Source of the DNA: Syntrophobacteraceae bacterium
GTDB lineage: Bacteria > Desulfobacterota > Syntrophobacteria > Syntrophobacterales > Syntrophobacteraceae
NCBI GenBank assembly: GCA_018053185.1
Contig: JAGPLX010000002.1
Location: forward strand, 1-64,000
Direction: 5' to 3'
DNA: 64,000 bases
Position 1 is the stretch's first letter. Each line of letters begins with the position of its first letter. The notes beneath the pieces were generated by a model. That model was given only the letters and a program-made list of their open reading frames with translations. It was not told the DNA's origin and ran no database searches. This document shows positions 4,904-29,763 of this stretch, one piece after another. The position numbers and the translations under genes are program-made.

Positions 4904-5001
4904 TCGGATGGTTTGAAATTACCGAATAAAATTACAGGTCGGAGGGTGACTTCCCTTGGTTTTGCCCTTGGACAGCACGTAGAAGGGAGAATCTCCAGGA
5001 A

Positions 5002-11626: not shown

Positions 11627-11655
11627 CGGCATCCCACAATCCGGATACGATAAGC

Positions 11656-11856
11656 CTACAGCTTGCGCACCTTGGTTGCCTGAGGTCCTTTCCTGCCTGC
11701 CTCTTCGGTGAAGGTGACACGCTCCCCTTCACTCAGAGACTTGAACCCGGATCCTTCGATTGCGCTGAAGTGCACGAATACATCGTTTCCGGAGTCGCTT
11801 TCGATAAAACCATAGCCCTTGCTGTCATTGAACCACTTTACTTTACCTTCTGCCAT
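11656..11856 (-). CDS. cspA: Cold-shock domain protein (CspA family)
   Basis: A 66-residue single cold-shock domain protein. It has the two RNA-binding motifs in canonical form: RNP1 as KGYGFIE and RNP2 as VFVHFSAI, with the usual start GKVKWFND and the C-terminal GPQATKV. The family binds single-stranded RNA and DNA and acts as an RNA chaperone. The ATG at 11856 is chosen because it gives the standard family length and has AAGGA nine bases upstream; an in-frame extension of 25 residues upstream is not conserved in character. A putative promoter lies at 11996-12023, giving a leader of about 130 bases, the long 5' UTR typical of csp mRNAs, and a strong terminator follows the gene. Confidence 0.96.
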
Positions 11857-12362
11857 TTTTCTAAATCCTTCTTTTGATGTGTATTTTTTCTGCTTTTGGA
11901 CGCGGTACCTGGAGCTACTGCGAAACCTCACCTTTGCCGAAATGAAAGATCGATTTCCCGGATAACTCGCGGTCCCTCCAAATTAGCATCGGCTAATCAT
12001 AACGGGAAAGTCCGAAAAGGCAAGAGAAAAAGTGAGACATTTTCACAATTTCTGATACGGGTTCATTCGCGGTTTTGTTCTTCCTGATTTTTCCCCGGCT
12101 CGTCGGCCGGTTCCAATTCGAAGGAAGGGGAAACCCCGAGTTTCCGTTCGCAGGTTCAGAGGGAGGGGAGGTTTTTGTGGTATCTTTTAGAGAAGCGCGC
12201 TAGATTTACCATGCTGTTTCTCCGGGTCCCGGCTTGTGCCGTGACGACATGCCGATGGTTTCGTGGTTTTTTGAAACCTTCGCATGCTAAAGGAAAGGAC
12301 GGTTGCCGGAGAAGAAGAAATCCTCTCCTCGAGATCGAGTGGGACGGGGTGAAATCATACGA
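11857..12362. other. cspA leader and divergent intergenic region
   Basis: This 505-base gap holds the long cspA leader (minus strand), its candidate promoter and one of three copies of the 12-mer ACATTTTCACAA (12037-12048). On the plus strand it runs into the MCE transport operon. No protein-coding frame here is convincing. Confidence 0.45.
11996..12023 (-). promoter_or_regulatory. Candidate sigma-70 promoter of cspA
   Basis: On the minus strand, TTGCCT (plus 12018-12023) and TATGAT (plus 11996-12001) are separated by 16 bases. The matches are 4/6 and 5/6. Position and the resulting long leader fit a cold-shock gene. Confidence 0.5.
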
Positions 12363-13541: not shown

Positions 13542-13559
13542 GATTGCAGGGCTTCGTTC

Positions 13560-14360
13560 ATGGAATCAAAGGAATCGCCGGGAGAAGTTGTCATCGAGGT
13601 TCGAAACCTTACCATGGCGTATGGAAGTTTTGTGATCCAGCGAGACCTGAACTTCACCGTTCGGCGGGGGGACATTTTCGTCATCATGGGAGGGAGCGGA
13701 TGCGGGAAAAGCACCCTGCTTCGGCACATGGTGGGCTTGCAGGAACCCGCCCAGGGGGAGGTGCTCTATGATGGAGTCAGCTTTTGGGAGACGGCCCCGT
13801 GGGAGCGGGAGCGTCTCATGAGGCGCTTCGGAATCCTTTATCAGAGGGGTGCGCTTTGGAGTTCCATGACCCTTGCGGAAAACATCGCCCTTCCCCTGGA
13901 GGAATACACGGGGCTTTCTCGTGGCGAAATCCGGGAGATCGTAGCCTTGAAGCTGGCCCTGGTGGGGCTTTCGGGTTTCGAAGAGTTCTACCCCTCGGAA
14001 ATTAGCGGCGGGATGCAGAAACGGGCGGGTCTGGCAAGGGCTATGGCCCTGGATCCGGATATCTTCTTTTTTGACGAGCCGTCGGCGGGTCTCGACCCTG
14101 TGAGTGCCCGCAGGCTGGACGACCTTATCCTCGAACTTCGGGACAGCCTGGGGGCCACCGTTATCGTGGTCACCCATGAGCTGGCGAGCATTTTCGCCAT
14201 TGCCACCAACTCGGTTTTCCTGGATTCCGAGAGTAGAACGATCATTGCCTGCGGCGACCCACGCCGGCTGCTCCAGGAATCCAGGGACCCGAAGGTGTTG
14301 AGTTTTCTGACGCGAGGCGACTCCTCCCGTTCCTCCTGGCCGGGCCCCGAACTGTCATGA
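13560..14360 (+). CDS. mlaF: MlaF-type ABC transporter ATP-binding protein
   Basis: A 266-residue ABC ATPase with Walker A GGSGCGKST (about residues 45-53), a Q-loop region (ILYQRGALWSSMT) characteristic of MlaF, the signature ISGGMQKRAGLARAM and Walker B IFFFDEPSAGLDP followed by the switch histidine in VVTHEL. The Q-loop sequence with GALWSSMTLAENIALPL is the MlaF hallmark. It energises the MlaE permease and is encoded 18 bases after it. The C-terminal tail beyond the ATPase core is short and proline/serine-rich. Together with MlaE and MlaD it should form an inner-membrane lipid transporter. Confidence 0.92.
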   Translation: MESKESPGEVVIEVRNLTMAYGSFVIQRDLNFTVRRGDIFVIMGGSGCGKSTLLRHMVGLQEPAQGEVLYDGVSFWETAPWERERLMRRFGILYQRGALWSSMTLAENIALPLEEYTGLSRGEIREIVALKLALVGLSGFEEFYPSEISGGMQKRAGLARAMALDPDIFFFDEPSAGLDPVSARRLDDLILELRDSLGATVIVVTHELASIFAIATNSVFLDSESRTIIACGDPRRLLQESRDPKVLSFLTRGDSSRSSWPGPELS

Positions 14361-14448
14361 GCCTTCGCGGGTGGGGAGAGCGCCCAAGAACGGAGATTTC
14401 AGGCGGAACGTCTCAACCATTCAACCGAGGAGAAATCATCGAGCCGTT

Positions 14449-15528
14449 ATGAGCAAACAAGCCAGCCCCATGGCCATTGGTGCCTTTCTTGTCGGGACCG
14501 TCGTCCTGGTACTGCTAGGTTTTCTATTTTTTGGAAGCGGGCGGTTCCTGAAACACACGCAAAAGTACGTGCTCTTCTTTGAGGGTTCCGTGAAGGGTCT
14601 CTCCGTCGGATCACCCGTGGATTTCAAAGGTGTCAAGGTAGGGAATGTGACCGACATCCACGTGCTCATGAACCGGGAAGACCTGACAGTCAAAATTGCC
14701 GTCTATATCGAGATTGATCCGGGTAGGGTTACCCAGGTGACTGCAAATCATGGTTCCAGGGAAATCGTTGAGAAGGTTGGAGATAAGGCGGTGGTCGAGC
14801 GCTTGATCGAACGTGGGTTGCGTGCGCAGCTTGACATTCAAAGCCTGGTCACCGGCCAGTTGTACGTGCTCCTGGACTTCTTTCCCGACAAGCCTGGCAG
14901 GTTCTCGGGAGTGACATCCGAGTACCGCGAAATCCCGACGGTGCCGTCCACCCTCGAGACCATCTCCCAAACCATCGACAAGCTTCCCATCGAGGAGCTC
15001 AGCAACAAGATCGTGGCTGCCATCAATGGGATCGAGCAGTTCATCAACTCACCCGAGTTGAAGGAAACGATGACCGCCGTCAAGGCAACGGCTCAGAATG
15101 CTCGAACATTGGTCGAGACGGTCAATGGCGAGATCAAGCCCATGTCGGCGGGAGTTAGGGAAACCCTTGCCGATGTGCGAAAGCTCCTGAAAGATACCGA
15201 CAGGCAAATGCAACCCCTTTTGGCCAGGGCCAACGAGGTGGTGAAGGACACTCATGGTTTTGTGGTTGAGGCGAAAAACGGGATTAGTCCCCTGGTTGGG
15301 AGTGCGATCGAGGCGTTGAAACTGACCCAGGAAGCCGTACGAAGGGCCGAGAAAACATTTGCGTCCCTCGAGAACCTGACGGGAGAGAGATCAGCGGTGC
15401 AGCTCGAACTCACCGAGGCCCTCCGGGAAATCTCGTCGGCTGCCCGGTCCCTGCGGACCCTCGCGGATTACCTCGAAAGACACCCTGAAGCCCTCCTGAC
15501 GGGAAAGGGGCGGCATGGAGAAAGGTAG
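14449..15528 (+). CDS. mlaD: MCE-domain (MlaD-like) substrate-binding protein
   Basis: A 359-residue protein with one N-terminal membrane helix (AIGAFLVGTVVLVLLGFLFFG), a single MCE domain at about residues 38-120 (VKGLSVGSPVDFKGVKVG, QLDIQSLVTGQLYV) and a long, mostly helical C-terminal extension (about 170-345) with heptad-like spacing. MCE proteins form hexameric rings or tunnels in the periplasm that carry lipids. The long helical tail suggests a needle or tube-like extension like that of PqiB or YebT rather than the short E. coli MlaD. The ATG at 14449 follows a GAGGAGAAA site. The gene overlaps the lipoprotein gene boundary closely, consistent with one operon. Confidence 0.9.
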   Translation: MSKQASPMAIGAFLVGTVVLVLLGFLFFGSGRFLKHTQKYVLFFEGSVKGLSVGSPVDFKGVKVGNVTDIHVLMNREDLTVKIAVYIEIDPGRVTQVTANHGSREIVEKVGDKAVVERLIERGLRAQLDIQSLVTGQLYVLLDFFPDKPGRFSGVTSEYREIPTVPSTLETISQTIDKLPIEELSNKIVAAINGIEQFINSPELKETMTAVKATAQNARTLVETVNGEIKPMSAGVRETLADVRKLLKDTDRQMQPLLARANEVVKDTHGFVVEAKNGISPLVGSAIEALKLTQEAVRRAEKTFASLENLTGERSAVQLELTEALREISSAARSLRTLADYLERHPEALLTGKGRHGER

Positions 15529-15529
15529 A

Positions 15530-16138
15530 ATGAAGAGTAGTTTTGTAGGTCTACTGGCCATGATTCTGGTGGGCGCCGGTCTTCTGGCGGTATGGGGGTG
15601 TGCGGGTTCCGGGCCGGCGCGATTTTTTCTCCTCTCTTCTCAGCCCGGGATGGGGGCGGAGCCGTTCGAGGCCGAAGAAAACAAAAACCCCTCTCTCGGC
15701 ATTCTTCCTATTCGATTTCCGCAATACCTGGATCGGCCCCAGATCGTTACCCGTACGAACCGAAACGAAATCCGGCTGGCTGAATTCGACCGGTGGGCGG
15801 AACCCCTGAAGGTGAACTTCACCCGTGTGCTGGGAGAAAACCTCTCTCGATTGCTCCGTTCCGACGGGGTGGTCCTTTTTCCCGCACCGAGGTCCGTGGA
15901 GGTGCGGACCTTGCTGTCGTTGGAGGTCCTGCAATTTGATGGCGCCCTGGGTGGGGAGAGTCGATTGATCGCCCGGTGGGTCGTCTACGGTGGGGACGGC
16001 AAAACCGTCGTGACGACGGGAAGGTCCGAGGTGGTGGAGCGAGCGGACGCCCCTACCTTCGATGCCCTGGTCGCCGCTCAAAGTCGTGCCGTGGCGGCAT
16101 TGAGCCGCGATATCGCTCAGTCCCTGGCCGGGATGTAG
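15530..16138 (+). CDS. PqiC-like (ABC transport auxiliary) outer-membrane lipoprotein
   Basis: A 202-residue lipoprotein (signal helix then VWGC, Cys24 lipidated) of the ABC-type transport auxiliary or PqiC/DUF330 family. Recognisable parts are RFFLLSS near the start of the mature protein, the LGILPIRFPQYLDRPQIVTR segment and the FDRWAEPLKVNFTRVLGENLSRLL segment. In the Pqi system the matching lipoprotein docks the MCE tunnel to the outer membrane. The start at 15530 has GGAGAAAGG just upstream and lies inside a short overlap with the mlaD end; an ATG at 15515 is also possible. It completes a four-gene MCE transport operon. Confidence 0.88.
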   Translation: MKSSFVGLLAMILVGAGLLAVWGCAGSGPARFFLLSSQPGMGAEPFEAEENKNPSLGILPIRFPQYLDRPQIVTRTNRNEIRLAEFDRWAEPLKVNFTRVLGENLSRLLRSDGVVLFPAPRSVEVRTLLSLEVLQFDGALGGESRLIARWVVYGGDGKTVVTTGRSEVVERADAPTFDALVAAQSRAVAALSRDIAQSLAGM

Positions 16139-16479
16139 CCGATCCTCGGCCCTTTTGCCATACTCACCGTATTCTTCGACAACTTCTTTCCCAACCGGAC
16201 GAAAGGACCCGTACCGGTTCTCCCGAACTCATGATGGTAGCCCGGATCGAAATCCGTATAGCGTGGCGGGAGGGCGGTATCTTCGCAAAAGAAAGACCCA
16301 ACCCTCACGCAACATGAAGGCATCCGGTACAGCCCTGCATAAGAGAATGTCCGATATGCTCCAACCGTCAATTGAAACAGGCTTCAGGGGAAATCCAGGC
16401 TTTCCCGTCCCCGGACCTGCGCCGGAAGCATGCGGGGTGACGGTCGGTAAAATGATCATCCTGTCCTGTGGAGCTGTAC
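16139..16479. other. Intergenic region carrying dispersed repeat A (copy 1)
   Basis: The gap lies between the MCE operon (plus) and the TauE fragment gene (minus). Bases 16328-16475 match 57254-57405 at most positions. No gene is evident outside the repeat. Confidence 0.6.
16328..16475 (+). repeat. Dispersed repeat A, copy 1
   Basis: About 148 bases that align along their length with 57254-57405. Shared blocks include TACAGCCCTGCA at the left end, AAATCCAGGCTTTCCC, CCGGAAGCAT and TAAAATGATCA near the right end, with scattered substitutions and a few small indels. It does not encode a recognisable protein. The left and right boundaries are sharp, as expected for a mobile or structured element. 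Confidence 0.8.
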
Positions 16480-16869
16480 TCAGTAGAGTCCCAGGAGGTT
16501 CGCTGCGAGAATGAGCAATCCGATCACCGCCACCCGCTTCACCACAATCGGGCTCACCCTCTTTGCTATTTGCGGCGCGATGAACCCGCCCAGGATCGCC
16601 GCCGGAAACATGATCAGAAAGAAGGTCAAGTCGAAATTTCCAAACTGGAAGTGCCGTGCCGAGCCCACGACGGTATTGAAGAATATGGCCAGGAGAGAGC
16701 TACCTACCACCACGTACATGGGGAGCCCCAGTCCCACCGTCATGAGAGGGACCATGAAAGGCCCACCCCCAAATCCGAACATGGATGATAGAACCGCAAT
16801 CAGAAACCCACCAATACAGCCCAAAATCACATTCACCTTGAACTCTACACCCCAGAACTCGATAATCAT
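16480..16869 (-). CDS. TauE/SafE permease, C-terminal half (separate gene)
   Basis: A 129-residue protein with four hydrophobic helices and the TauE/SafE motif GFGGGPFMVPLM near residues 32-43. TauE/SafE anion permeases (sulfite, sulfoacetate and related exporters) normally have two homologous halves in one chain; this gene encodes only the second half. The upstream gene (16910-18184) ends with the first half, and the two are only 40 bases apart on the same strand, so they probably form a two-subunit permease. The protein begins at a natural ATG and is not a frameshift remnant: there is no continuous homologous reading between the two genes. Confidence 0.75.
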   Translation of the reverse strand: MIIEFWGVEFKVNVILGCIGGFLIAVLSSMFGFGGGPFMVPLMTVGLGLPMYVVVGSSLLAIFFNTVVGSARHFQFGNFDLTFFLIMFPAAILGGFIAPQIAKRVSPIVVKRVAVIGLLILAANLLGLY

Positions 16870-16909
16870 AATCTATGCTCCTCTCATCCGAAAACTCGAA
16901 AGACCGGTC

Positions 16910-18184
16910 TCACTTTGCACGGGCCGCTTCTTCCGCTCTCTTCTTGAATTCCCGCAAAATTGCCTGTTCCTTCTTGTTTTTGGATAAATATCCGGGTGTT
17001 GTCTGCCAAAACATGAGGCCTGCCAGGATCACCAGGATCCATCCAAAAATGAACTTATATTGACTCAGTGTGATCAATTCGGTGAGTTTCGGTCCGATGA
17101 AGGCACCCGCTACCATGGCAATGCCTATGGTGGTTCCGAGCTTCCAGCTGATGAACTTGATCTTGGAGTAGTTCAAAATTCCGCTGGCCTGGGAAAAGGC
17201 GACGGTGGGCATGACCGTTCCAGCCACAATGGTGTGAGGGAAAGGAAATAGAGAAACCAGCAGGGGATTCAGAATGAACCCGCCGCCGGCTCCCATGAGG
17301 ACCCCAAAGACAGCGATGGCAAGAGCGAGGAAGAATGGACCGAAGAGATTGACGCTCGTTCCGGCATTGTCCAGGTAGACATTTGGAAAGCTGATGCTGT
17401 TTTCGACGGTGAGCGCTTCACTCTTCACATCCTTGTCTACTACAGCCCTGATAAAAAACTTACCGGGAGGCGCCCCGGAGTCGATGTCCAGTCTTGCGGT
17501 ATAAGCCCCGTCCGGGCTCACTTCCACATTGGGAATGAAAATTTTATCCGGGCTTCGGAAGCGTGCCTTCACCAACTGCATGGAGCGTCTCCTGGTTTCC
17601 TTCCCGTCCATGGCCGGCAGCAAATCGCCCCGGGAACCCATGACACTTCCAAGCAGCGTTGCCTGATAACGATCAATCTTTGCTTTTGCCGGGGCGGAAT
17701 AGGCATTGTCTGCGCCAAGGTCTTTCAGTGCCTGGGATACGCTCCACTTGCTCCCTTCTTTCTTGATTTCTTCGAGTTTTCCCTGCATGTCCCTGGGAAG
17801 GAAAATCTTGTAGTAAGCGGGCATCTCATGGGTCATATAAAGTATATAAGGTCTCTTGCCCGTTTCTTTGTCGGGATCCGCGTCGAATCGCGAGGCACGT
17901 ACTTTATCCTCGCTCCAGACTTCCAGGTAAACCGGCTTGCCGGGGATGGCCGTTCCAGTTACCACGATGCTGCCTCCATTGCTGAGGGCCGTCTTATCCG
18001 CCTTGATGAAAACGGTCCCTGCATCGAGTTTTTCCCCTTCGCTTTTCACCTCGGGTTTCGGCGTTTCAACCGGGGGGGCAGTTTGCGCCCCCCGGGATTG
18101 CTGTTGGGCAAACGAGCCTCCCTGATACAGCATGATGGACGTGGCGCCCAAAGCGACAATCAACGACAACCATAAACGCTTCAT
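16910..18184 (-). CDS. TauE/SafE permease N-terminal half with large exported N-terminal domain
   Basis: A 424-residue protein. It opens with a signal-type helix (WLSLIVALGATSIMLYQGG), followed by a polar, probably periplasmic domain of about 240 residues (beta-rich, with TVFIKADKTALSNGG and GAYTARLDIDSGAPPGKFFIRAVV). It then has four membrane helices carrying the TauE/SafE motif GAGGGFILNPLLV, and a basic cytoplasmic tail. The ATG at 18184 is chosen because AAGGAGG lies eight bases upstream; a longer frame adds 21 residues without support. With the 129-residue gene just downstream it should complete an anion-transport unit. The substrate is not inferable; sulfite or a sulfonate is the family expectation. 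Confidence 0.75.
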   Translation of the reverse strand: MKRLWLSLIVALGATSIMLYQGGSFAQQQSRGAQTAPPVETPKPEVKSEGEKLDAGTVFIKADKTALSNGGSIVVTGTAIPGKPVYLEVWSEDKVRASRFDADPDKETGKRPYILYMTHEMPAYYKIFLPRDMQGKLEEIKKEGSKWSVSQALKDLGADNAYSAPAKAKIDRYQATLLGSVMGSRGDLLPAMDGKETRRRSMQLVKARFRSPDKIFIPNVEVSPDGAYTARLDIDSGAPPGKFFIRAVVDKDVKSEALTVENSISFPNVYLDNAGTSVNLFGPFFLALAIAVFGVLMGAGGGFILNPLLVSLFPFPHTIVAGTVMPTVAFSQASGILNYSKIKFISWKLGTTIGIAMVAGAFIGPKLTELITLSQYKFIFGWILVILAGLMFWQTTPGYLSKNKKEQAILREFKKRAEEAARAK

Positions 18185-19009
18185 CAATTCCTCCTTTATC
18201 TTCATCGTGGTCATCTTCTCGTCCCCCCTCGCTACGATCTTCGTCACAAGGAGCTTCGACTATCAATCATCTCCACTGCCGGATGTCATGATTTTACGCG
18301 GAAATTCCCGGAAGAAGCGAGGCTGATCCAGTGAATTCCCCCACTTTGACTCCGAAATATTTACGGACAAATCTATAAACTTTTATTGCTGTTTCAGCAA
18401 GTTAAATCATCTCCGGGAATTGCTATATTTTATTTGTCTTTTGCTGAACATGAATAAGTGGTTGAAAAAAAAGGGAAGAGGGGCTATAGATTTTAGGGAC
18501 TTCCGCCAGGAAACTTAAGGAGGTATAGCCGACTTCTTCCCCGGACACATTGTACCCTGTGGGGAATTTTTTTGGGGCTGTTTTCACTCAAGTGGACCTC
18601 GATACTTCCCTGGGTTCGTTTGGGCCGGTGTTAGGAAAGTCCCGCCGGAAACGGACTCAATTGTTGAAATGGCTGCATTTCGTCATGAAAACTCAACGAA
18701 AATCTCAGAACATTTTCACAACAGGATCAAAGGTTTGAGTGGTCACCGGGAATTGCCGGGTCTGTGTCGGATTGAGAGACGGGAGATGTCTTACTCGCTT
18801 TGGAGCCGACCGCCTTCTTATCGAGAGGCATGTAAGGAGCTGGAGCCGCTTTTTCAGTGAGAGTCCATGGAACCCGGAGACTCTTCGATCGACTCAAGGG
18901 CAAAAGGTTGAATCCGGATTCTCCATATTTCTTGCAGAGCACGTGCTCAGCTCGCCCCGTTGGTCGGGTTCCGTCTACTGCTAACCGGGGAAGGGAAAGG
19001 GATACAACA
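18185..19009. other. Intergenic region with AT-rich stretch and degenerate repeat X (copy 1)
   Basis: An 825-base gap. At 18330-18450 it is unusually AT-rich and holds a small palindrome (TTGCTG-TTT-CAGCAA). Bases 18462-18610 are a degenerate copy of the segment at 59384-59535, and one of three ACATTTTCACAA copies is at 18710-18721. No intact gene is visible before wrbA. Confidence 0.5.
18462..18610 (+). pseudogene. Repeat X, copy 1: degenerate copy of a short coding segment
   Basis: Translated in one frame this reads LKKKGRGAIDFRDFRQET, stop, GGIADFFPGHIVPCGEFFWGCFHS. The intact copy at 59384 reads LKRKGRKAIDLEDLRQETWGGTAMNLFPDQIVPVLEFFRNRFHAG. Here a TAA replaces the tryptophan codon and one codon, the one supplying the ATG start in the other copy, is deleted, while the Shine-Dalgarno-like AAGGAGG is kept. 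Similarity fades after about 18610. The pair shows common descent of a coding segment whose function I do not recognise. Confidence 0.65.
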
Positions 19010-19612
19010 ATGGCAAAAGTTCTCGTTCTTTACTACAGCATGTACGGTCACACGGAAACCATGGCGAAAGCGGTGGCGGAAGGCGCGGGCAGCGTCGAAG
19101 GGATCGAGGTCGTGGTCAAACGCGTGCCCGAGCTGGTACCGGAAGATGTGGCACGGAAAGCCGGTGCCAAGCTCGATCAAGGGGCACCGGTTGCTACGGT
19201 GGATGAGTTGCCGAACTATGATGCCGTCATTTTTGGAACGCCGACACGTTTCGGCGGCATGTGCGCCCAGATGCGAAATTTTCTTGACCAGACCGGAAGG
19301 TTGTGGGCCGGAGGAGGGCTGATCGGGAAAGTGGGCAGCGTGTTTACTTCCACAGCCACCCAGCACGGCGGACAGGAAACGACCCTTACCTCCTTTCACA
19401 CTACCCTGTTACATCACGGCATGATCATCGTGGGGGTTCCGTATTCCTGCAAAGAACTCACGAACATGAGCGAAATCACAGGCGGAACCCCCTATGGAGC
19501 GAGCACTCTTGCCGGCGAGGACGGGAGTCGTCAGCCGTCGGAGAATGAAATGAAAATTGCTCGCTTCCAGGGAGCCTACGTTGCAGGAGTTGCCAAGAAG
19601 CTATCAGCCTGA
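19010..19612 (+). CDS. wrbA: NAD(P)H:quinone oxidoreductase, WrbA family
   Basis: A 200-residue flavodoxin-fold enzyme. The FMN phosphate loop [14 protein letters not shown] is at residues 8-21, and the WrbA-typical segments [21 protein letters not shown] and [13 protein letters not shown] (FMN ring contacts) are present, as is the tetramer-forming insert [20 protein letters not shown]. WrbA reduces quinones by two electrons and so limits semiquinone and superoxide formation. Length and motifs are standard. The ATG at 19010 has GGGAAAGGG upstream; upstream in-frame codons belong to the intergenic region. The neighbouring catalase on the same strand suggests a small oxidative-stress locus, possibly acquired together. 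Confidence 0.96.
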
Positions 19613-19743
19613 CGAATAAGGAGTCATCCGACAACCAACTCCGGTAAGCGGTATACAGCCGCCGCTGATTCAGGGCGTCAGCGTATCAGGCGGATCGGAA
19701 AGCTCGGACAGTCCACGGACAAAAAACTGAAAGGAGCACAACC

Positions 19744-21198
19744 ATGAAAGACAACGACCGCAAACCCTTAACCAACGATGCGGGTATCCCCGTATCCAGC
19801 GACGAGTTTTCCCTCACCGTAGGACCCGACGGCCCGATTCTGCTGCACGATCATTACCTGATGGAGCAGATGGCCAACTTCAACCGGGAGATGATTCCGG
19901 ATCGCCAACCCCATGCGAAGGGCTCAGGAGCTTTCGGATACTTCCAGGTGACCCGGGACGTCAGCTCCTACACCAAGGCGGCTGTGTTCCAACCGGGTAC
20001 GAAGACCGAGGTGCTGGCCAGGTTCTCCACGGTGGCCGGTGAAAGCGGCAGCCCCGACACCTGGCGGGACGTGCGCGGCTTTGCCCTCAAGTTCTACACC
20101 ACCGAGGGCAATTACGACATGGTAGGGAACAACACGCCGGTATTCTTCGTGCGCGATCCCATGAAGTTCCAGCATTTCATTCATTCGCAGAAGCGCCGTG
20201 CGGACAACGGTCTGCGCGACAACGACATGCAGTGGGACTTCTGGACCCTGTCTCCCGAGTCCGCCCACCAGGTTACCATCCTGATGGGCGATCGCGGAAT
20301 TCCCAAGAGTTATCGGCACATGAACGGCTACTCGAGCCACACTTACATGTGGGTCAACGCCAAAGGCGAACGCTTCTGGGTCAAGTACCATTTCGAGACC
20401 GACCAGGGTATTGAGACTCTCACCCAGGAGGAGGCCGACCGGATCGCCGGTGTGGATGCCGACTACCACCGCCGCGACCTGTTCGAGGCGATCAAGCGGG
20501 GAGATTACCCCGGCTGGACCCTCAAGGTGCAGATCATGCCCTTTGAAGAAGCCGACACCTATCGGTTCAATCCGTTCGATTTGACCAAAGTCTGGCCGCA
20601 CGGCGACTATCCACTCCACGAAGTGGGCCGGCTCACCCTGGACCGTAATCCAATCGATTTTCACTCCGAGATCGAACAGGCGGCATTCGAGCCGAACAAC
20701 CTCGTACCCGGTATTGGACCGAGCCCCGACAAGATGCTGCTTGCCCGCCTGGTTTCCTACGCCGACGCCCACCGGGCGCGCCTCGGGGTCAACTACAAGC
20801 AGATCCCGGTCAACCGACCCAAGAGCCCGGTCCACAGCTACAGCAAGGGCGGGGCCATGCGGATCGACAAAGTCTCGGATCCGGTGTACGCACCGAACTC
20901 CAAGGGCGGTCCCAAGGCCGACGCCGAGCGGTATCCCGAGATGGCCGTCTGGAGCGCCGGCGGTGAGTTCATCCGAGCCGCTTACACCAAGCGCAAGGAC
21001 GATGATGATTTCGGCCAGGCCGGCACACTGGTGCGCAAGGTCATGGACGATGCCCAGCGCGACCGGCTGGTATCGAACGTGGTGGGGCACCTGAAGAGCG
21101 GCGTATCCGAACCCGTGTTGAAGCGCGCTTTTGAATACTGGCGCAACATCGACAGGGAGATCGGCGATCGTATCGCCAAGGGTGTACAAGGGAGCTGA
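19744..21198 (+). CDS. katA: Monofunctional heme catalase (KatA type)
   Basis: A 484-residue small-subunit clade 3-type catalase that dismutates hydrogen peroxide. The distal histidine lies in [12 protein letters not shown], the distal asparagine in [12 protein letters not shown], and the proximal heme-ligand tyrosine in [14 protein letters not shown]. The usual substrate-channel and NADPH-pocket region follows. No residue essential to the family is missing. The ribosome site AAAGGAG precedes the ATG. It lies 130 bases downstream of wrbA on the same strand. In a predicted anaerobe the pair serves oxygen exposure; base composition looks similar to the surroundings, so lateral transfer is possible but not shown. 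Confidence 0.97.
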
Positions 21199-21556
21199 TC
21201 TCAGGTACTTGGGACAGGGCTCAAGAAATAGAAGCAATCCACAATCTTATATCGGTTGGGCGCATTCTGGTCGACGTTTCCATAAAATTCGGGAATGCGC
21301 CCTTTCCCGCCTCGTGAAATGAAACAAGGCGCCTGCCTGTCACCGGGTGGGCAGACAGCTTCCATGCCGTGCCGATTTCATGACCTCCGCCCTGGTTGTC
21401 ATCCCCTTTACCCATCGCGATTCTTCCTGGTTTTCCTGTTGTGTTTGCCGGTGGCATCCGATAGTCTGATTGTCAAATGGAATCGAGTATTTTCCGGTGT
21501 GGGGAACTCGGTTTCGTCCGGGATCAGATACGGCTTCGCGTTCGAGGAAAGGATTG
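21199..21556. other. Intergenic region with a 10-bp inverted repeat after katA
   Basis: No gene is supported. A perfect 10-base inverted repeat (GGGCGCATTC / GAATGCGCCC) lies at 21258-21267 and 21293-21302 with a 25-base loop and TTT just after the right arm. It may be a weak terminator for katA or a binding site. Confidence 0.5.
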
Positions 21557-23932
21557 ATGTCCCGCAGACAGCCCTTTCTCGTAAGTATCTTGATGATCGC
21601 CTTTCTACTCCTTTTGAGTTTCGCCTTCCATCATCTTCACAACGCTCCCGTTCTGGGCATCACCACGGCCTGGAGCCAAGCGGACCACCGCTATCATGTC
21701 CTGACCTCCTCTCCCTGGAGCCCCCTCAAGCCGGGGGATGTGATCCTGCGCATGGGGGACCTCGATGTGGGATTCACCCATTTACTGACGGACAATATCT
21801 ATATCCATGGGAAGAACGAGCTCTTCGAGTGGCTCAGGATCAAGAAGGACGTTTTCCGCACCCTGATGAACCCACCGGTCCCGTTCATCGTGGAACGCGA
21901 CGGCCGGATCGTTCAGGTCTTCACAACTCCCAGGAAGGCCGGCCTGGAATTTCTCGCCCACCTTGAAGTGTTGCACCTTTTTGCGGGCATTGTTTTTTTC
22001 CTGGTGGGCACGATTGTCTTCTACAAGCAGAAGGCAAGTGAGCAAGGTATCGTCTTTTTTGGCATGTGCATGTTCCTCATGCTGGTATTCGTGACCAACG
22101 CCACCTCCCTCATGAGTGAAATCGTTTACGATCCCGTCTACCTGGCCGTGAACAACATCTCGAACATCATTTCACTGCTGCTCGGCAATGCGTTTGTCCT
22201 GCATCTTTCCCTTCTGATTCCCCGCAAGCGAAGGTTCCTCGATCGTTTCCCCGCCCTCGCGTATCTCTTCTATGCACTCAATGTCCTTGTCGCGGCTTCA
22301 CTCGACATCCGGATCATCAATTTTCTCCTGGCATTGTACGGACCCCTGGCCGCCCTGGCCGTTGTCCAGGCCTTTTTCACCTACAGGCAGCCCATCGAGC
22401 GTCAACAAATGCGTTGGATTGGTGTCGGGTTCGTCTTCGGGCTCGCTCCATGGGTTGTCATCAACGCCATTCCCATGCTGGTCACGGGCGATCGGCTCAT
22501 GAAGGATACCATCCCAGCCGCCTTCGTGGTCTGCATTCCCGTGTCCATGGCCTTTGCGATACAGAAATACCGTCTCCTGGATATCGACGCTTTTCTCGAG
22601 GGAGCTTATGTCTACACGATCACGCTGCTGCTGCTGAGCATTGCGGATTTGACCTTCATGGGGTTGCTGGCCTCTCATTTCAGTAGGTCCATGGACATGA
22701 GTCCGGCTGTCCAGGGGCTTTTGTCCGTGGCTCTAGCCATCGCCCTGTACGCCGCTTTGAGAGACAGGGTCCGGTTCCTGGTCCGAAAGCTCTTCAAACG
22801 GACTCGCCTGGACGAAGCGACCGTTCTTGCCTCTTTTGTGGAACAAGCCGGCGGGCTGTCGCCGACCGCCGCCATGAAGGCCTTTTCCGATGCGGTCCAT
22901 GAGGCCTTTCGGCCCGACAAGATCCTGACCGTACACCGGGAGGACCCGGATGCACGGGACTTTGTGAAGCCGTTTCAGGGGGAACTCGGCCCGGTCAACC
23001 TCTGGGAAAGTTCGTTCGAGGCTCGGCTTCCGGACAACGATCTCTACGTAGCCCTTCCGGTCGGGAAAGGAGAAGAAGTGCACCACGTGCTTCTCCTCGG
23101 AGGGCTCCCCGGAGGCCGGTTCTATTCCCGGCACGACATGGCGGTCCTCAAGACCCTGCTCACCCAGGCCAGGATGACCTATGAAAATGCGCTCCTCTAC
23201 GAGGAGAACCTGAAGCATCATCATGACCGCCTGGCCGAAGCCCGGAGGCATATGCGTGAGAAGGAAAAGATGGTGAAAGACCTCCATGATGGGATCGGAG
23301 GCATCACCACCAACATAAGCCTTCTGGCTGAACTGGCTCTGCAAAAGCAGTCGTTGGACGAGGTGCGGGAGACCCTGGCGACCATCTCATCCCTCTCCCG
23401 CGAAAGCCTGTCCGAGATCAGAGGCTTCATGCAGAGCCTCGACCCGAACGAAGCCGACTGGGAGGCGCTGACCTGCGAATTGCGCCACCTGGGAAGCACT
23501 ATGATCCACGCCCACCGGATGGGTTTCGAGATATGCTCCTCCTGCGACCTGCTCGACGAAAAACCGGGCAGCCTGCTTTTCCTCAATGTCTTCAGGATAT
23601 ATAGGGAGGCACTCACCAACCTTATCAAGCATTCCCGTGCGAGGGTGGTGAAGGTTGTGTTCACGGCGACCCGGGAAAAGCTCGTGCTTTCGGTTCACGA
23701 CGATGGAATCGGGCTGGAACGATCCGAAGGGAGGGGGACGGGCAGGGGCATCTCCAATATGAAGGCCAGGGCGGAGGAGGTGGGAGGACGTTTGCAGGTG
23801 GTATCGGACCACGGCACGCGCGTGCTCCTGGAAGTCCCCCTTCCAGTGAATCATTCCCCCGGGGACAAGGAACCGGAGATGTTAACCCAAGGGGTGGGTC
23901 AGGCGTGCATTTATGAAGATCGTCATCGTTGA
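21557..23932 (+). CDS. Membrane sensor histidine kinase, NarL/LiaS type (HisKA_3)
   Basis: A 791-residue kinase. Residues 8-25 are a membrane helix, followed by an extracytoplasmic region with a PDZ-like stretch (SPLKPGDVILRMGDLDVG) and then about seven to eight hydrophobic helices (about 155-405). A GAF-like region and coiled coil (RLAEARRHMREKEKMV) follow. The phospho-acceptor is in KDLHDGIGGITTNISLL (His577), the HisKA_3 signature. The ATPase domain has the N-box REALTNLIKHS and the G1 motif VHDDGIGL with GTGRGISNMKAR. I chose the ATG at 21557 for its GAGGAAAGG ribosome site. The response-regulator gene overlaps its end by 20 bases, so the two are a cognate pair. Confidence 0.9.
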   Translation: MSRRQPFLVSILMIAFLLLLSFAFHHLHNAPVLGITTAWSQADHRYHVLTSSPWSPLKPGDVILRMGDLDVGFTHLLTDNIYIHGKNELFEWLRIKKDVFRTLMNPPVPFIVERDGRIVQVFTTPRKAGLEFLAHLEVLHLFAGIVFFLVGTIVFYKQKASEQGIVFFGMCMFLMLVFVTNATSLMSEIVYDPVYLAVNNISNIISLLLGNAFVLHLSLLIPRKRRFLDRFPALAYLFYALNVLVAASLDIRIINFLLALYGPLAALAVVQAFFTYRQPIERQQMRWIGVGFVFGLAPWVVINAIPMLVTGDRLMKDTIPAAFVVCIPVSMAFAIQKYRLLDIDAFLEGAYVYTITLLLLSIADLTFMGLLASHFSRSMDMSPAVQGLLSVALAIALYAALRDRVRFLVRKLFKRTRLDEATVLASFVEQAGGLSPTAAMKAFSDAVHEAFRPDKILTVHREDPDARDFVKPFQGELGPVNLWESSFEARLPDNDLYVALPVGKGEEVHHVLLLGGLPGGRFYSRHDMAVLKTLLTQARMTYENALLYEENLKHHHDRLAEARRHMREKEKMVKDLHDGIGGITTNISLLAELALQKQSLDEVRETLATISSLSRESLSEIRGFMQSLDPNEADWEALTCELRHLGSTMIHAHRMGFEICSSCDLLDEKPGSLLFLNVFRIYREALTNLIKHSRARVVKVVFTATREKLVLSVHDDGIGLERSEGRGTGRGISNMKARAEEVGGRLQVVSDHGTRVLLEVPLPVNHSPGDKEPEMLTQGVGQACIYEDRHR

Positions 23933-24536
23933 GGACAATACCCTGTTGGCGGAAAACCTCCGATTGATCTTGGGCATGGAGTCCGGGATCACGGTGGCGG
24001 GTACGTTCGGGACCGCCGAAGAGGCCCTGGTCTCTCTGAAGGATTGCTCTCCCGACATCGTGCTTGTGGACCTGGGGCTGCCGGGCATGTCCGGCATCGA
24101 GCTCATCCGGGCCGCGAGAGACGCGCTGCCGGAGCTCGAAATCATGGCCTACACCGTCTTCGAGGACAGGCAGACCATTTTCGCGGCCCTCAAGGCCGGC
24201 GCTACGGGGTATATCCTGAAGGGGTGCACTCCCAGGGAACTCATCGAAGCCCTCTTCAATCTGCACCGGGGAGGGGCGCCTATGAGCCCGAAGGTCGCCC
24301 GTCTTGTCATCCGGGAGCTCCAGGGCGAGGAAACGGAGGAAGCGAACCTCCTGAGCCGAAGGGAACAGGAGATTCTCGGTAGCCTCGGCAGAGGGCTTAC
24401 CTACAAGGAAGTCGCGGTTTCGCTTCACATCAGCCCCCACACCGTCCACGCACATATCAAGAAGATCTATGGAAAACTCCAGGCAAAAGACCGCCGGCAG
24501 GCCCTCCGAAAGGCCGGCAGAAAGGGCCTCCTCTGA
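23913..24536 (+). CDS. NarL/FixJ-family response regulator
   Basis: A 207-residue response regulator. The receiver domain (1-120) has the acidic pair VEDN near the start, the phospho-acceptor Asp53 in IVLVDLGLPG, the conserved T/Y switch region (MAYTVFED) and the lysine in YILKG. The C-terminal domain (about 140-205) is a LuxR-type helix-turn-helix (LLSRREQEILGSLGRGLTYKEVA, SPHTVHAHIKKIYGKL). It overlaps the kinase gene by 20 bases, which implies coupled translation. Its most likely target, by position, is the large secreted-protein gene starting 270 bases downstream, but this is an inference. Confidence 0.95.
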   Translation: MKIVIVEDNTLLAENLRLILGMESGITVAGTFGTAEEALVSLKDCSPDIVLVDLGLPGMSGIELIRAARDALPELEIMAYTVFEDRQTIFAALKAGATGYILKGCTPRELIEALFNLHRGGAPMSPKVARLVIRELQGEETEEANLLSRREQEILGSLGRGLTYKEVAVSLHISPHTVHAHIKKIYGKLQAKDRRQALRKAGRKGLL

Positions 24537-24803
24537 ACTTTTCCGAAAAGACCCTGAAAGAGGGGATGTGTTCTAGGCCCCATGGCGGAGTGACCCGATG
24601 AGGGGCGAATATCCCCTGAAAATACCCCGACCCGGGGATTGACGGGCTATGGACTTTCCATGGGAAACTGCCCCGCGAGGATTTGGGCGCACCGAACAGC
24701 GACAGCGATGAAGAGGCGTTAGACGTCTCCCTTTCCCACAAGGGCGAGAAGGCGACCTCTCCATGCGGCGACATCGAGTCACAACGAAGGGGAAGGGTCC
24801 GTC

Positions 24804-27800
24804 ATGAAAAAAGGCAGAGAAGGTCTCGGAGCGATCGGGTTGTTGTTGGCGATGTGCCTGGTTTTCATTTCCACCCTGGTTTTGGCTGCGCATCCTGTCA
24901 ACATCCAGAAAACGGGACAGGACCAATGTTTCGACGAAATGGGCGAAGAGATCGGCTGTGGGGGGACCGGCCAGGACGGCGGCGTGCAGGCGGGAATCGA
25001 GTGGCCGATCCCGCGGTTCGAGTCCCTGGGGACGGGCTGCCTGCTGGACCGGCTTACGGGTCTCACCTGGACCTCCCAAAACGTGAGTATGGCCTACGAA
25101 GTAATGGCAGACTACCTGCACGACCTGAACGGAGGTTCGGGACCATGCGGGTACATGGACTGGCGGGTCCCAACCGTCATCGAGCTCATGACCCTGATGA
25201 ACCTCGGAGCGGAGAACCGTGCCGAATACCTGAACAACAACGGATTCGAGATCTCGGAGGGCCAGTATGTCTCCGACACGGGTACCCACGTTCTGTTCTG
25301 CCTTTGGAGCGTGCATCTGGGTACCGCTACCAAGTTAACGGGCTATGTGGGCCCGAGCGACGTCGCCCAATGGTTGTTCGTGCGGGGAGGTGCCTTTGGA
25401 AAGCCGGACGGCGAATATCCGGCCAATCCGTGGAACCAGTATCCCGGCCGTGGGGGACCCGGTGTCGACTGGCCCGCCCGTGCTGTCGACAACGGAGATA
25501 ACACCATCACCGACAAGCTAACGGGCCTCATGTGGGCAAAAAACACCACGGCCGACGTCCGGGAGTGCAATGAAGACTTGAGCACGTACATGACCTGGCA
25601 GGAAGCCCTCGACTACATTCAGTGCCTCAATGGGATAAACTATCTGGGCCATGGGGATTGGCGGCTGCCCAACGTCATGGAAGCCCTCAGCACCGTGAAT
25701 TGGGACAATGGTTCGTCTGTATTTCGGGGGGTGGCGATCCTCCCGGCCGACCCCAACACGTACTCCAACTGGTTTTGGACGTCCGACAGCGGCCTCAGAT
25801 ACAAGGATTACGCCATTATATTCGAGGTTTCGGGGCCCAATGCCGGCCCTCACCAATTCGATCAAAAGTTACGGGCCAACCACGTTTGGCCCGTGCGGGG
25901 GGAGCCGGGGTACAATCTCATGGGAATTGTGACGGAAAAAGGATCCCCCCTGGCGGGGGTGACGCTCACCCTGAGCGGGACGGATTCGGGGACCACCCAG
26001 ACGGATTTCGACGGTACCTATGCTTTTATAGGGCTTGCCCGGGGATCATACACGATCACTCCCAGCATGGACCAGTGCATCTTCGATCCAGGGAAAAGGT
26101 CGGTCATTCTTGGGGGAAGCACCATTCGCCGCCTCGATTTCGCTGGCACCCGCCTGACCTATTCTATTTCAGGGAGTGTGAAGACAGCCGCCGGGGAGCC
26201 GCTTCCGAGCGTCCCGGTAAACCTGGACGGCACCGCGAAGAAGACCACCACAACGGCGGCTGACGGGTCCTACAGGTTCACCGGCCTGACCAACGGCACT
26301 TATACCCTCCAGCCGGCAAAGACCTCCTACCTTTTCAAACCGGAGCAAAGGACCCTGAACATCGCGGGCAAGGACGTCGCCGGACAGGACTTCCAGGGAT
26401 CCTACGGTCTGGGTTTTCTCAAGACCTCTATTTCACCGCAGGAAGCCGTGGATGCCGGGGCCCGATGGAGGGTGGACGACGGCTCATGGCAGGCATCCGG
26501 GACCAAGGTTCAGGTCTCGGTGGGCCTCCACCAAGTCTCGTTCAAGGACATCTCCGGCTGGACCACTCCCGCGACCCGGAAGGTCGTCGTCAAGAGCGGA
26601 GGGACCTCGACCGTTGTCGGAAAATACCGCACGGACGGGTCCCTGAAGGTGACTCTCTCGCCGGATGGGGCCGTGGGTGCCGGTGCCCGGTGGAGCGTGG
26701 ACGCGGGGGCCTGGCGGAAAAGCGGGACCACGGTCGAGGGCCTCTCGGTCGGTCCCCACGAGGTTGCCTTTAAAGACCTCAAGGGCTGGACCCCTCCCAC
26801 GGTCATGAAGGTCCCGGTGAAAGCCGGCAAGACCACAACCATCATCGGGAGCTATGTTCCGGACGGGTCTCTCAAGGTGACCATCTCCCCGAAGGGGGCC
26901 GTCAGTGCCGGTGCCAGGTGGAGGCTGGACGGAGGGGCCTGGAGGAAGAGCGGGACTATGCTCGACAACCTTTCCGCCGGTTCCCATGAAATATCCTTCA
27001 AGGACCTCCGGGGCTGGACGCCCGAGGCCGCCCGAACGGTGACCGTTGACAGCGGCAGGTCCGTCACGGTCAAGGGAACGTATACGCGGGACGGATCGTT
27101 GAAGGTGACGATCTCCCCAGAGAGTGCGGTCAATGCGGGCGCCCGGTGGAGGGCGGACGGAGGGGCGTGGCAGGAAAGCGGGACCACGCTCGACAACCTT
27201 TCCGCCGGTTCCCACGAGATCTCGTTCAAGGACCTCTCCGGCTGGACCGCTCCCGGACCCAGCACGGTCACCGTCGCAAGCGGCCGGACCACCACAGCCG
27301 CGGGAGAGTACACGGCCATGCCCCTCTCCAATACATCCAACCGGAACACCTGGTTTACCAACGGGACCGTGTACGCGGTGGCCACCACCGGGGATACCAC
27401 CTACATCGGTGGATTATTCTCCTACGTGGGACCCTATACGGGCTGCGGTGTGCCCTTCGATGTATCCACCGGGGCGATGCAAACCACCTATCCTGCCGTC
27501 AACGGTACGGTTTTTGCCGTTGTCCCGGACGGTTCCGGCGGATGGTTCGTGGGAGGAAGCTTCTCCGAAGCCGGCGGGACGACGCGAAACAACCTGGCCC
27601 ATATCCGGTCCGACGGCAGTCTGGATCCTTCCTGGGACCCCGATGCCAATGACAAAGTGTCCGCTCTGTCCGTGAGCGGAGGCACGGTCTACGTCGGGGG
27701 AAGCTTCACCCGGATCGGTGGACTGGAGCGTAACCGTATAGCCGCCGTCGACGCTTCCACCGGTGCCGTCACGGATTGGGACCCGAACGCGGATGCCGCC

Positions 27801-29369
27801 GTGTCGGCCCTGGTTGTGAATGACGGTCTCGTCTATGTCGGAGGAGATTTCAGCACGATCGGGGGCCAATCGAGGAGTTACATCGCCGCGCTGGACGCAT
27901 CCACGGGAGACGCCACTCCTTGGGATCCTTATTCGAGCGGTTCGGTAAACTCCCTGGCGGTCGGAGGCAACACGTTATACGTGGGTGGAAATTTCCTCCA
28001 CATCGGAGGAACCAATCGACGAGGGCTTGCGGCTATCGACGCTTATGGACACGCAACGTCGTGGAACCCCGACCCCAATGGCTCCGTGTATGCCCTGGCG
28101 GTGAACGGAGAAACGATTTACGCAGGAGGCTTCTTCACGAGCATCGGGGGGCAATCCCGCAGATTCCTTGCCGCTCTTGACGCATCCACCGGGGATGCCA
28201 CCGACTGGAACCCGGATCCTGACCAAAACGGCTATATATACGCCCTGGCGGCAAACGCTGCGACCGTCTACGTCGGAGGGAGCTTCACGAGCATCGGGGG
28301 GGAGGCGCGCAGCCACCTGGCCGCCGTTGATCCGGCTACGGGCCGCGCCACCGATTGGAACCCCGGCGGCACCGGCGGCACGGTGACGGCATTGGCGGCA
28401 AGCGGCGGGACCGTATACGTCGGGGGAACGGCCAACAGCATGGGAGGCTACGCACGCAACAACCTGGCGGCACTGGATGCCTCCGGCAAGGCCACTTCCT
28501 GGGACCCCGGGGCCGACAACACGGTTCTGGCCCTGACGGTGAACGGCGACACGGTGTATGCGGGAGGTCGCTTCACCAACATCGGTGGCAGGCCGCGGAA
28601 CTACGTTGCCGCCCTGGACGCCGCGACGGGCGCCGCCACCGATTGGGACCCAGGAGCAGATCGCGAGGTGCTGACCCTCCTGGTGAACGGCGACACGGTG
28701 TATGCGGGAGGTCGCTTCACCGGCATCGGGGGGCAGTCGCGGAATCGAATCGCCGCCCTGGACGTCTCGACGGGTGTCGCCACCAATTGGAACCCCGGGG
28801 CCGACAACCTGGTAGAGGCCCTCGGAGTGAAGGGTGACCGGGTCTACGCAGGTGGAACGTTCACCAGCATCGGGGGGCAGTCGCGGAGCCGAATCGCCGC
28901 CCTGGACGCCGCGACGGGCGCCGCCACCGATTGGAATCCCGGCACCAGCGGCACCTACGAGGTAGCCGCCCTGGCCGTGAGCGGTGACATGGTATATGTC
29001 GGAGGGAATTTCTCCTCGATCGGCGGCCAGTCGCGGACCCACATCGCCGCCTTAGACGTGGCGACCGGGAATGCGTCCTCCTTTCAGCCATCTCCCAACC
29101 AGAGGGTGCTTGCGCTGGCTGTGAGCGGCGATACGGTTTACGCCGGAGGCTTTTTCAGCACCATGGGAGGGCAGTCCCGAATCAGCGTGGCCGGCTTGGA
29201 TGCTTCCACCGGCAGCCCCACCTCCTGGGCCCCCAACGTATCGGCGACGGGGGTCAAGTGCCTGGCCGTCCTGGATGACCGGCTCTATGTCGGTGGAGGT
29301 GGATTCATGGTGGATAAGACCCAATCCAACTTTGCCCGGTTCGATGGTCGAACCGATCCTATCGAATAG
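24804..29369 (+). CDS. Very large modular secreted protein (DUF1566, CNA-B-like, PEGA-like repeats, DUF5122 propeller)
   Basis: A 1,521-residue protein with a signal peptide (GAIGLLLAMCLVFISTLVLAA). It has two Lcl/DUF1566-type domains at about residues 75-200 and 225-360 (each with LTGLTW or LTGLMW, and DWRVP or DWRLP). Two carboxypeptidase-regulatory/SdrD-B-like beta domains lie at about 370-535. Four PEGA-like repeats of 75-76 residues start at 26412, 26637, 26865 and 27093 (GSLKVTISP, AGARWR, GWTPP). A run of about 14 DUF5122/delta-60-type repeats of about 48 residues fills the rest (VYVGGSFTSIGG, AALDASTG, TDWNP). This is a probable cell-surface or extracellular adhesin or sensor with a beta-propeller end. 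It lies directly downstream of a two-component pair. Confidence 0.9.
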   Translation: MKKGREGLGAIGLLLAMCLVFISTLVLAAHPVNIQKTGQDQCFDEMGEEIGCGGTGQDGGVQAGIEWPIPRFESLGTGCLLDRLTGLTWTSQNVSMAYEVMADYLHDLNGGSGPCGYMDWRVPTVIELMTLMNLGAENRAEYLNNNGFEISEGQYVSDTGTHVLFCLWSVHLGTATKLTGYVGPSDVAQWLFVRGGAFGKPDGEYPANPWNQYPGRGGPGVDWPARAVDNGDNTITDKLTGLMWAKNTTADVRECNEDLSTYMTWQEALDYIQCLNGINYLGHGDWRLPNVMEALSTVNWDNGSSVFRGVAILPADPNTYSNWFWTSDSGLRYKDYAIIFEVSGPNAGPHQFDQKLRANHVWPVRGEPGYNLMGIVTEKGSPLAGVTLTLSGTDSGTTQTDFDGTYAFIGLARGSYTITPSMDQCIFDPGKRSVILGGSTIRRLDFAGTRLTYSISGSVKTAAGEPLPSVPVNLDGTAKKTTTTAADGSYRFTGLTNGTYTLQPAKTSYLFKPEQRTLNIAGKDVAGQDFQGSYGLGFLKTSISPQEAVDAGARWRVDDGSWQASGTKVQVSVGLHQVSFKDISGWTTPATRKVVVKSGGTSTVVGKYRTDGSLKVTLSPDGAVGAGARWSVDAGAWRKSGTTVEGLSVGPHEVAFKDLKGWTPPTVMKVPVKAGKTTTIIGSYVPDGSLKVTISPKGAVSAGARWRLDGGAWRKSGTMLDNLSAGSHEISFKDLRGWTPEAARTVTVDSGRSVTVKGTYTRDGSLKVTISPESAVNAGARWRADGGAWQESGTTLDNLSAGSHEISFKDLSGWTAPGPSTVTVASGRTTTAAGEYTAMPLSNTSNRNTWFTNGTVYAVATTGDTTYIGGLFSYVGPYTGCGVPFDVSTGAMQTTYPAVNGTVFAVVPDGSGGWFVGGSFSEAGGTTRNNLAHIRSDGSLDPSWDPDANDKVSALSVSGGTVYVGGSFTRIGGLERNRIAAVDASTGAVTDWDPNADAAVSALVVNDGLVYVGGDFSTIGGQSRSYIAALDASTGDATPWDPYSSGSVNSLAVGGNTLYVGGNFLHIGGTNRRGLAAIDAYGHATSWNPDPNGSVYALAVNGETIYAGGFFTSIGGQSRRFLAALDASTGDATDWNPDPDQNGYIYALAANAATVYVGGSFTSIGGEARSHLAAVDPATGRATDWNPGGTGGTVTALAASGGTVYVGGTANSMGGYARNNLAALDASGKATSWDPGADNTVLALTVNGDTVYAGGRFTNIGGRPRNYVAALDAATGAATDWDPGADREVLTLLVNGDTVYAGGRFTGIGGQSRNRIAALDVSTGVATNWNPGADNLVEALGVKGDRVYAGGTFTSIGGQSRSRIAALDAATGAATDWNPGTSGTYEVAALAVSGDMVYVGGNFSSIGGQSRTHIAALDVATGNASSFQPSPNQRVLALAVSGDTVYAGGFFSTMGGQSRISVAGLDASTGSPTSWAPNVSATGVKCLAVLDDRLYVGGGGFMVDKTQSNFARFDGRTDPIE
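26412..27317 (+). repeat. Four in-frame tandem repeats of 225-228 bp (PEGA-like)
   Basis: Repeat starts at 26412, 26637, 26865 and 27093 are 225, 228 and 228 bases apart. Each encodes the pattern GSLKV-(T/S)-(I/L)-SP, AGARW, GAW, HE(I/V), F, D, GWT. Copies 3 and 4 are the most similar, including a shared block LDNLSAGSHEISFKDL, so they derive from a recent duplication. They lie inside the large secreted-protein gene. Confidence 0.9.
27318..29366 (+). repeat. About 14 in-frame DUF5122/delta-60-type repeats
   Basis: Units of roughly 144-160 bases encode the recurring pattern VYVGG-(S/N/R)-F-(T/S)-IGG, RN or RS, IAALDA-(S/A)-TG, A-T-(D/S)-W-(N/D)-P. Identical blocks recur, for example GGQSRSRIAALDAATGAATDW and close variants, so the region is prone to recombination. 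The fold expected is a beta-propeller. Confidence 0.88.
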
Positions 29370-29763
29370 ATGGGTTATCCGGTAAGGTCACGGCTTTTCC
29401 GAAAACCCGTCGGAAAAGCTTCCGTGTTTTGGGTGCGTCGGCTCAAAGAGAGCAGGAATGCAGGCCGTTCATTGCCTGGATGCCTGCTTTCGCCGGGCGG
29501 AGCAAGAGGGGGAGGGGGCGCGGAGGGACAACAACCCGGCATGGACGGCTCTTCAAGGTAGGTCGGGAGAAAACAGACCGTGGTCTCGTCTCGATGGATT
29601 TCATCCTCGATACGGTCACGGTCTTTCATTTTATGTGATGGCTTGCGGGTTTTTCATCCGAGGGGGAGGATCGGAACATCGGGAACGACACAGTCCCCAT
29701 GTTCGAGACGGGATGAACCGGGATTTGTCGAAAGAGGGCGCTTTCGCGGCGGATGCCCCTGCC
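29370..29763. other. Intergenic region downstream of the large secreted-protein gene
   Basis: No gene is supported. It begins with a hairpin that may end transcription of the large gene (29393-29419). The short frames seen here are rich in G, R and P and have no recognisable domain. Confidence 0.4.
29393..29419 (+). terminator. Possible terminator of the large secreted-protein gene
   Basis: A perfect 9-bp stem (GCTTTTCCG at 29393-29401, CGGAAAAGC at 29411-29419) with a nine-base loop lies 24 bases after the stop codon. Only a weak T-rich tract (TTCCGTGTTTT) follows, so termination strength is uncertain. Confidence 0.5.

Follow-up and report, generated by a model that had tools for sequence, protein, structure and literature searches.

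The large gene and its neighbourhood

The window, that is, the whole 64,000-nucleotide stretch analysed here (Syntrophobacteraceae bacterium, contig JAGPLX010000002.1, positions 1 to 64,000), carries a gene for a 1,521-residue protein next to the genes of a two-component system. The location, size and neighbours that a preliminary description had given for this open reading frame were confirmed. The features of the locus, in window coordinates, are as follows.

21557 to 23932, + strand: sensor histidine kinase, with a transmembrane segment, a PDZ-like part, about 8 transmembrane segments, HisKA_3 and HATPase_c; a TTG start at 21470 is also possible
23913 to 24536, + strand: NarL/LuxR-type response regulator (Response_reg, GerE), overlapping the kinase gene by 20 nt
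24538 to 24550, no strand: palindrome CTTTTCCGAAAAG immediately following the regulator gene
24804 to 29369, + strand: open reading frame for the predicted exported modular protein of 1,521 residues (ORF list and Pfam architecture)
24804 to 24890, + strand: predicted signal peptide, hydrophobic core at residues 7-29, cleavage near A28/A29 by inspection
25011 to 25391, + strand: first Lcl_C/DUF1566 domain, from a Pfam Lcl_C stretch with approximate limits set by eye
25500 to 25898, + strand: second Lcl_C/DUF1566 domain, residues 233-365, the best Lcl_C stretch in Pfam
25914 to 26405, + strand: two transthyretin/SdrD-B/CNA-B-like domains, residues about 371-534 (PF13620, PF13715, PF17210 and PF17802, two stretches each)
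26406 to 27314, + strand: four PEGA-like 'GARW' repeats of 75 or 76 residues, residues 535-837, seen as 228-nt direct repeats
27366 to 28379, + strand: DUF5122 blades 1-7, putative first propeller (anchors, DUF5122 match, structure matches over model residues 13-342)
28380 to 29366, + strand: DUF5122 blades 8-14, putative second propeller (anchors, tandem seven-bladed matches 1nr0 and 2ymu)
29392 to 29420, + strand: terminator-like hairpin of 11 pairs, with T-rich tail, downstream of the large gene

Pfam analysis of the 1,521-residue protein revealed Lcl_C at 113.3 bits against a curated cut-off of 34.9, in two stretches, and DUF5122 (PF17164) at 81.6 bits against a curated cut-off of 27. The prealbumin-like part matched CarboxypepD_reg, CarbopepD_reg_2, SdrD_B (44.2 bits, cut-off 29.7) and SpaA (32.2 bits, cut-off 23.1), each above its cut-off and in two stretches; the CNA_B family itself was absent from the Pfam matches. 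The core of the predicted signal peptide had a mean Kyte-Doolittle hydropathy of 2.68, the hydropathy scan revealed no comparable segment at the C-terminus, and no sortase signal was found there by eye. The architecture proposed earlier (two Lcl_C domains, two CNA-B-like domains, four repeats and 14 DUF5122 blades) stood as a whole, except that the four repeats have no Pfam PEGA match. This is a real, correctly located multidomain protein whose novelty lies in how known modules are combined, so that the weight of the protein itself is modest.

Divergence and number of the DUF5122 blades

Fourteen blades were delimited by VYVGG-type anchors with a spacing of 47-50 residues. The 91 blade pairs had a mean identity of 45% (amino acid) and 55% (nucleotide), and the closest pair, blades 9 and 10, reached 71% and 78%, respectively. 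At these values the term 'near-identical', which had been applied to the repeat units of this gene, is wrong for the blades, and the PEGA-like units are also well short of it (best pair, units 3 and 4, 74% amino acid and 75% nucleotide). Blades 9-11 are linked by no more than short exact tracts of 40, 39 and 21 nt, a mark of past local exchange. The median blade identity was 53.8% for all blades and 56.5% for the inner blades, and the within-protein median of the relative L070 was 75%. A published survey takes a median above 60% as a sign of recent amplification in 'highly repetitive' propellers (PMC9218822), and the 1,521-residue protein lies below this mark.

We also examined blade number in the window and 26 further DUF5122-like loci, which gave 26 distinct sequences as L130 duplicates L099. 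Automatic totals were off (window 16, L068 15, L128 20, L077 6, L185 18) owing to off-array matches under a lax domain threshold or to merged split hits, and the spacings between units were used instead. In this small, non-random sample, with completeness judged by hand from the printed spacings, 16 of the 26 arrays were complete, eight with 14 units and eight with 7. Fourteen units were counted in the window protein, L067 (Chitinophagaceae), L068 (Kryptonia), L070, L091 (with one imputed unit), L092, L099 and L128; seven were counted in L076, L077, L078, L086, L089, L129, L182 and L183, where L086 and L089 are open reading frames cut on the N-terminal side whose arrays begin well inside. Proteins of both sizes (L128 and L129) occur in a single genome, G415. 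The remaining ten (L069, L072, L087, L088, L090, L093, L095, L181, L184 and L185) were left out as cut, broken or irregular. They include L072 with three units and internal stops, L184 with six units in a split gene, and L087 with three or four units in a closed 226-residue open reading frame, which was taken as a fragment and counts against the sevens if it is an intact gene. L069, at 8923-11249 of its locus in a Melioribacter MAG, is a DUF5122 gene in which 13 units were counted and a frameshift interrupts blade 11, the product of assembly collapse or a decaying gene; if intact, it counts against the rule of seven. The counts of 14 or 7 in complete arrays suggest closed seven-bladed propellers, and blade number, as read from these sequences, looks fixed rather than labile.

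Searches with the blade part also revealed matches in 14 plasmid and three phage records, all below 60% identity, and five of these were fetched and counted. Two Leptospira phages (L182, 4884-6035; L183, 4929-6074) carry a seven-unit DUF5122 protein beside the portal gene. It is possibly a structural or receptor-binding propeller, and the position beside the portal gene fits a binding role without showing one.

An AlphaFold2 model of residues 838-1521, built on four sequences, had moderate confidence (mean pLDDT 69.1, pTM 0.50), and Foldseek searches with it returned propellers throughout. The top VIA-align match was the two-propeller structure 1nr0 (Z 23.3, 452 residues aligned, rmsd 22.8), and the 14-blade structure 2ymu was also listed (Z 22.1). 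Many seven-bladed single rings matched model residues 13-342 at 3-4 A, and the eight-bladed designs 8prj, 6tjg and 6g6m matched over about 11-392. As the rmsd over both rings was about 23 A, the split into two rings draws on the one-ring matches and the unit counts; two seven-bladed rings are the best reading of the modelled blade region, short of proof. The best solved relative by sequence was the designed protein SAKeCEref (8pjs, E 5.7e-18).

A PEGA-like module shared among secreted proteins

The four repeats between the prealbumin-like domains and the blades gave no Pfam match at E values up to 10 (the four units) or up to 0.1 (the whole protein), and no NCBIfam family was found in residues 535-837. 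When 47 distinct units from the window and its family relatives were compared with 23 PEGA domains of relatives, the two sets were colinear over 58 columns. The hhalign match to PEGA was weak (probability 37.7%, P = 0.00034), with both reversed controls at 0.3%. This weak, colinear match makes 'PEGA-like' a fair description of the repeats but does not extend to Pfam membership. The predicted structure of the repeat (mean pLDDT 46.6) was too poor to use.

Of the 26 genomes in the window's family, 11 had matches within residues 523-848, and no clear match to this stretch was identified in the other 33 genomes; a match in G045, at 444-615, spans its border. No match to the PEGA-like part was found among 72,556 plasmid records. 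The 76-residue repeat is fused in relatives to papain-like peptidases, to prokumamolisin-type proteins and to a beta-helix protein, and the window's own genome has it also on a Calx-beta protein (L079) and a papain-like peptidase (L080). In L070 it is fused to a DUF5122 propeller, with a module order that differs from that of the window protein. Across these different proteins its copy number ranges from 1 to 7, and pairs of units reach 92% identity in relatives, a level not seen in the window gene. The relative at locus L071 has four neighbouring genes (2822-5722, 6029-9178, 9228-12395 and 12399-16061) with 1, 2, 2 and 4 units, a tandem array of secreted proteins; the two of these genes that were scanned are prokumamolisin-type. 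The papain-like protease L073 (3102-6257, the same protein as L011) has seven repeats, and its units three apart are 88% identical, which suggests block duplication. A 76-residue module that no Pfam or NCBIfam model matched thus recurs on secreted proteins of many kinds within this bacterial family, a by-product that could be of wider importance than the protein itself.

Evolution of the repeats

To compare blades between proteins, an anchor-based tree was built on 42 columns from the 67 blades of the window protein, L067, L068, L069 and L070. An identity comparison of the window protein with L070 (diagonal 60.8%, rest 56.3%) had been set aside as a measure of positional orthology: L070 gave 15 matches, which left the register unsure, and the anchor-based tree was used for this reason. 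The tree is weak, with 50 of its 64 inner forks open, and only label counts and its one starred clade were used. Among the 53 inner blades the label 'protein' needed 17 changes, whereas 300 shuffles gave a mean of 32.6 and never fewer than 27. For the label 'position' the number was 42, compared with 40.7 when shuffled. Taken protein by protein, the clustering was clear in three (the window protein, L068 and L070) and weak in L069, and L067 did not show it. The starred clade comprised blade 2 of all five proteins. Since inner blades group by protein and not by position, the blades seem to have been homogenised inside each protein; composition or host bias may have contributed to this clustering.

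We propose, with odds close to even but somewhat below it, that DUF5122 arrays undergo concerted evolution under a closure constraint. Blades would be repeatedly homogenised within each protein, by gene conversion or by paired gain and loss, and their count would stay at 7 or 14 since a seven-bladed ring would have to be complete in order to fold. On this view the window protein combines conserved end blades with an interior that has been turned over. With counts that look quantised at 7 and 14 and sequences grouping by protein, these arrays could serve as a natural case in which to study how ring closure limits change in repeat number.

The preliminary description had instead proposed ongoing expansion or contraction of the repeats. 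An active array of this kind would make the protein differ from strain to strain. The exact tracts in blades 9-11, the clustering of inner blades by protein and the 2.7-2.8 copies reported by Tandem Repeats Finder in each of the repeat regions are on the side of such an array, as are the highly similar PEGA-like pairs and variable copy numbers of relatives. The blades of this gene are nevertheless well diverged, with a median below the mark of the published survey (PMC9218822), all 16 arrays judged complete had 14 or 7 units, and the PEGA-like copy numbers compare different proteins, not strains. We therefore consider an active array unlikely. The proposal is not supported where the blades are concerned; for the PEGA-like part it survives in another form, as the copy numbers and highly similar pairs of relatives make expansion of the module plausible in the family, although it is not visible in this gene. 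Diversification of the Lcl_C domains by a diversity-generating retroelement is less likely still. Such elements often target DUF1566 (PMC4159848), but the window's genome, which is 93.8% complete, had 0 RVT_1 matches, and with no reverse transcriptase found there this candidate was disfavoured to the point of being scarcely credible.

The adjacent two-component system and flanking DNA

All four expected domains of a NarL/LuxR-type pair (HisKA_3, HATPase_c, Response_reg and GerE) were matched in Pfam. The earlier account of a kinase with PDZ-like and multi-helix parts appears to hold. The PDZ-like part of the window's kinase gave no Pfam match, and PDZ_2 was found in three of six sensor homologues scanned (E 2.9e-7, 1.5e-5 and 0.059), of which only the first was above the 27-bit cut-off. 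A search of the 395 genomes of the phylum with the sensor part, residues 1-451 counted from the ATG at 21557, gave matches in 20, the window's own genome included, with 21-30% identity in the others. Among the six homologues scanned the terminal part was a kinase in four, a guanylate cyclase in one and SpoIIE in one, so the sensor part appears to be a general input module. None of 16 loci that carry relatives of the large protein or its modules had a kinase homologue, and regulator-like matches occurred at three of these loci (L069, L079 and L074); conversely, the modules of the large protein were found at 0 of 10 sensor-homologue loci, drawn from 10 of the 19 other matching genomes.

The 12-mer CTTTTCCGAAAA has three copies in the 2.63-Mb genome, and two of them (24538-24549 and 29394-29405) bracket the large gene. 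It was considered as an insertion footprint or a regulator site; the two flanks of the gene share no longer similarity (best E 0.05), and the 12-mer is noted as a curiosity. Upstream of RecD2, similarity to the congener G001 ends at window position 29792, and a DNA search of this 88% complete draft with 16000-24800 revealed nothing in the kinase or regulator. By this comparison the unit looks accessory. A transposase-like open reading frame of about 524 residues, identified by eye upstream of RecD2 in G001 (L162), lies past the end of this similarity and near the place that the large gene has in the window.

Control of the large gene by the kinase and regulator, as the preliminary description suggested, is possible from adjacency and shared strand, but less probable than not. 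All three genes lie on one strand, with an overlap between the first two and 267 nt between the regulator and the start of the large gene, the + strand has no terminator-like site between regulator and large-gene start, and one copy of the 12-mer lies just after the regulator and another just after the large gene. Against this, no sigma-70-like promoter was found, kinase homologues and the large protein's modules are found apart at the 16 and 10 loci above, and the 12-mer may be chance, its downstream copy sitting in the terminator-like hairpin. A closer relationship, in which the exported protein is the kinase's ligand-binding partner and the extracytoplasmic PDZ-like domain reads, for example, its free C-terminal tail, is very improbable. 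The adjoining genes, the PDZ-like part of the sensor family and the top Foldseek match of the propeller model, the extracellular domain of the sensor BT4673 (with BT4663 also high), are consistent with it; the TM-scores for these two sensors are low (0.24-0.28), the same loci count against co-occurrence, and a cyclase and a SpoIIE domain are driven by homologues of the sensor part where no such partner was seen.

Function and comparison with known systems

The product of the large gene is probably a multidomain protein that is exported by the Sec route, unanchored, and has a ligand- or surface-binding role. It would present two C-type-lectin-like Lcl_C domains at one end and tandem seven-bladed DUF5122 propellers at the other, and the beta domains between them, two of them transthyretin-like and four PEGA-like, would form the joining spacer. 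The protein may act outside the cell or at its surface as an adhesin, or as a binder of polysaccharide or another surface, and may have originated by shuffling of modules common in its bacterial family. Propellers commonly bind partners; both propellers and Lcl_C domains are also capable of structural or enzymatic roles. A binding role is favoured because of this property of propellers and because of the nature of Lcl_C. The latter resembles C-type lectins, and in Legionella Lcl it binds glycosaminoglycans (PMC11162425).

The two Lcl_C domains, known here from sequence at 113 bits, are the likeness to the C-terminal domain of Legionella Lcl, which has a collagen-like stalk; the 1,521-residue protein has none and carries other modules. 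Its likeness to SdrD_B, SpaA and CarboxypepD_reg prealbumin-like domains lies in PF13620, PF13715, PF17210 and PF17802, all above cut-off. It is not an MSCRAMM, with 23 bits compared with the 2500 needed and no sortase signal seen by eye. True PEGA domains (PF08308) of relatives score 22-68 bits in Pfam, whereas the window repeats have no match and carry some five additional residues ahead of the GARW motif. The putative propellers resemble the tandem 14-blade WD40 structures 2ymu and AIP1 (1nr0) in having 14 blades and in the match of the model to these two-ring structures; the WD40 proteins belong to another sequence family, and the blades of the 1,521-residue protein are not near-identical. 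WD40 blade counts peak at 7 and 14 (PMC9218822). With the DUF5122 or 'delta-60 repeat' propellers L067, L068 and L070 the protein shares the Pfam match, 48-residue units and a count of 14. Their arrays directly follow an N-terminal signal-like region, whereas the array of the 1,521-residue protein is C-terminal, behind Lcl_C, transthyretin-like and PEGA-like modules.
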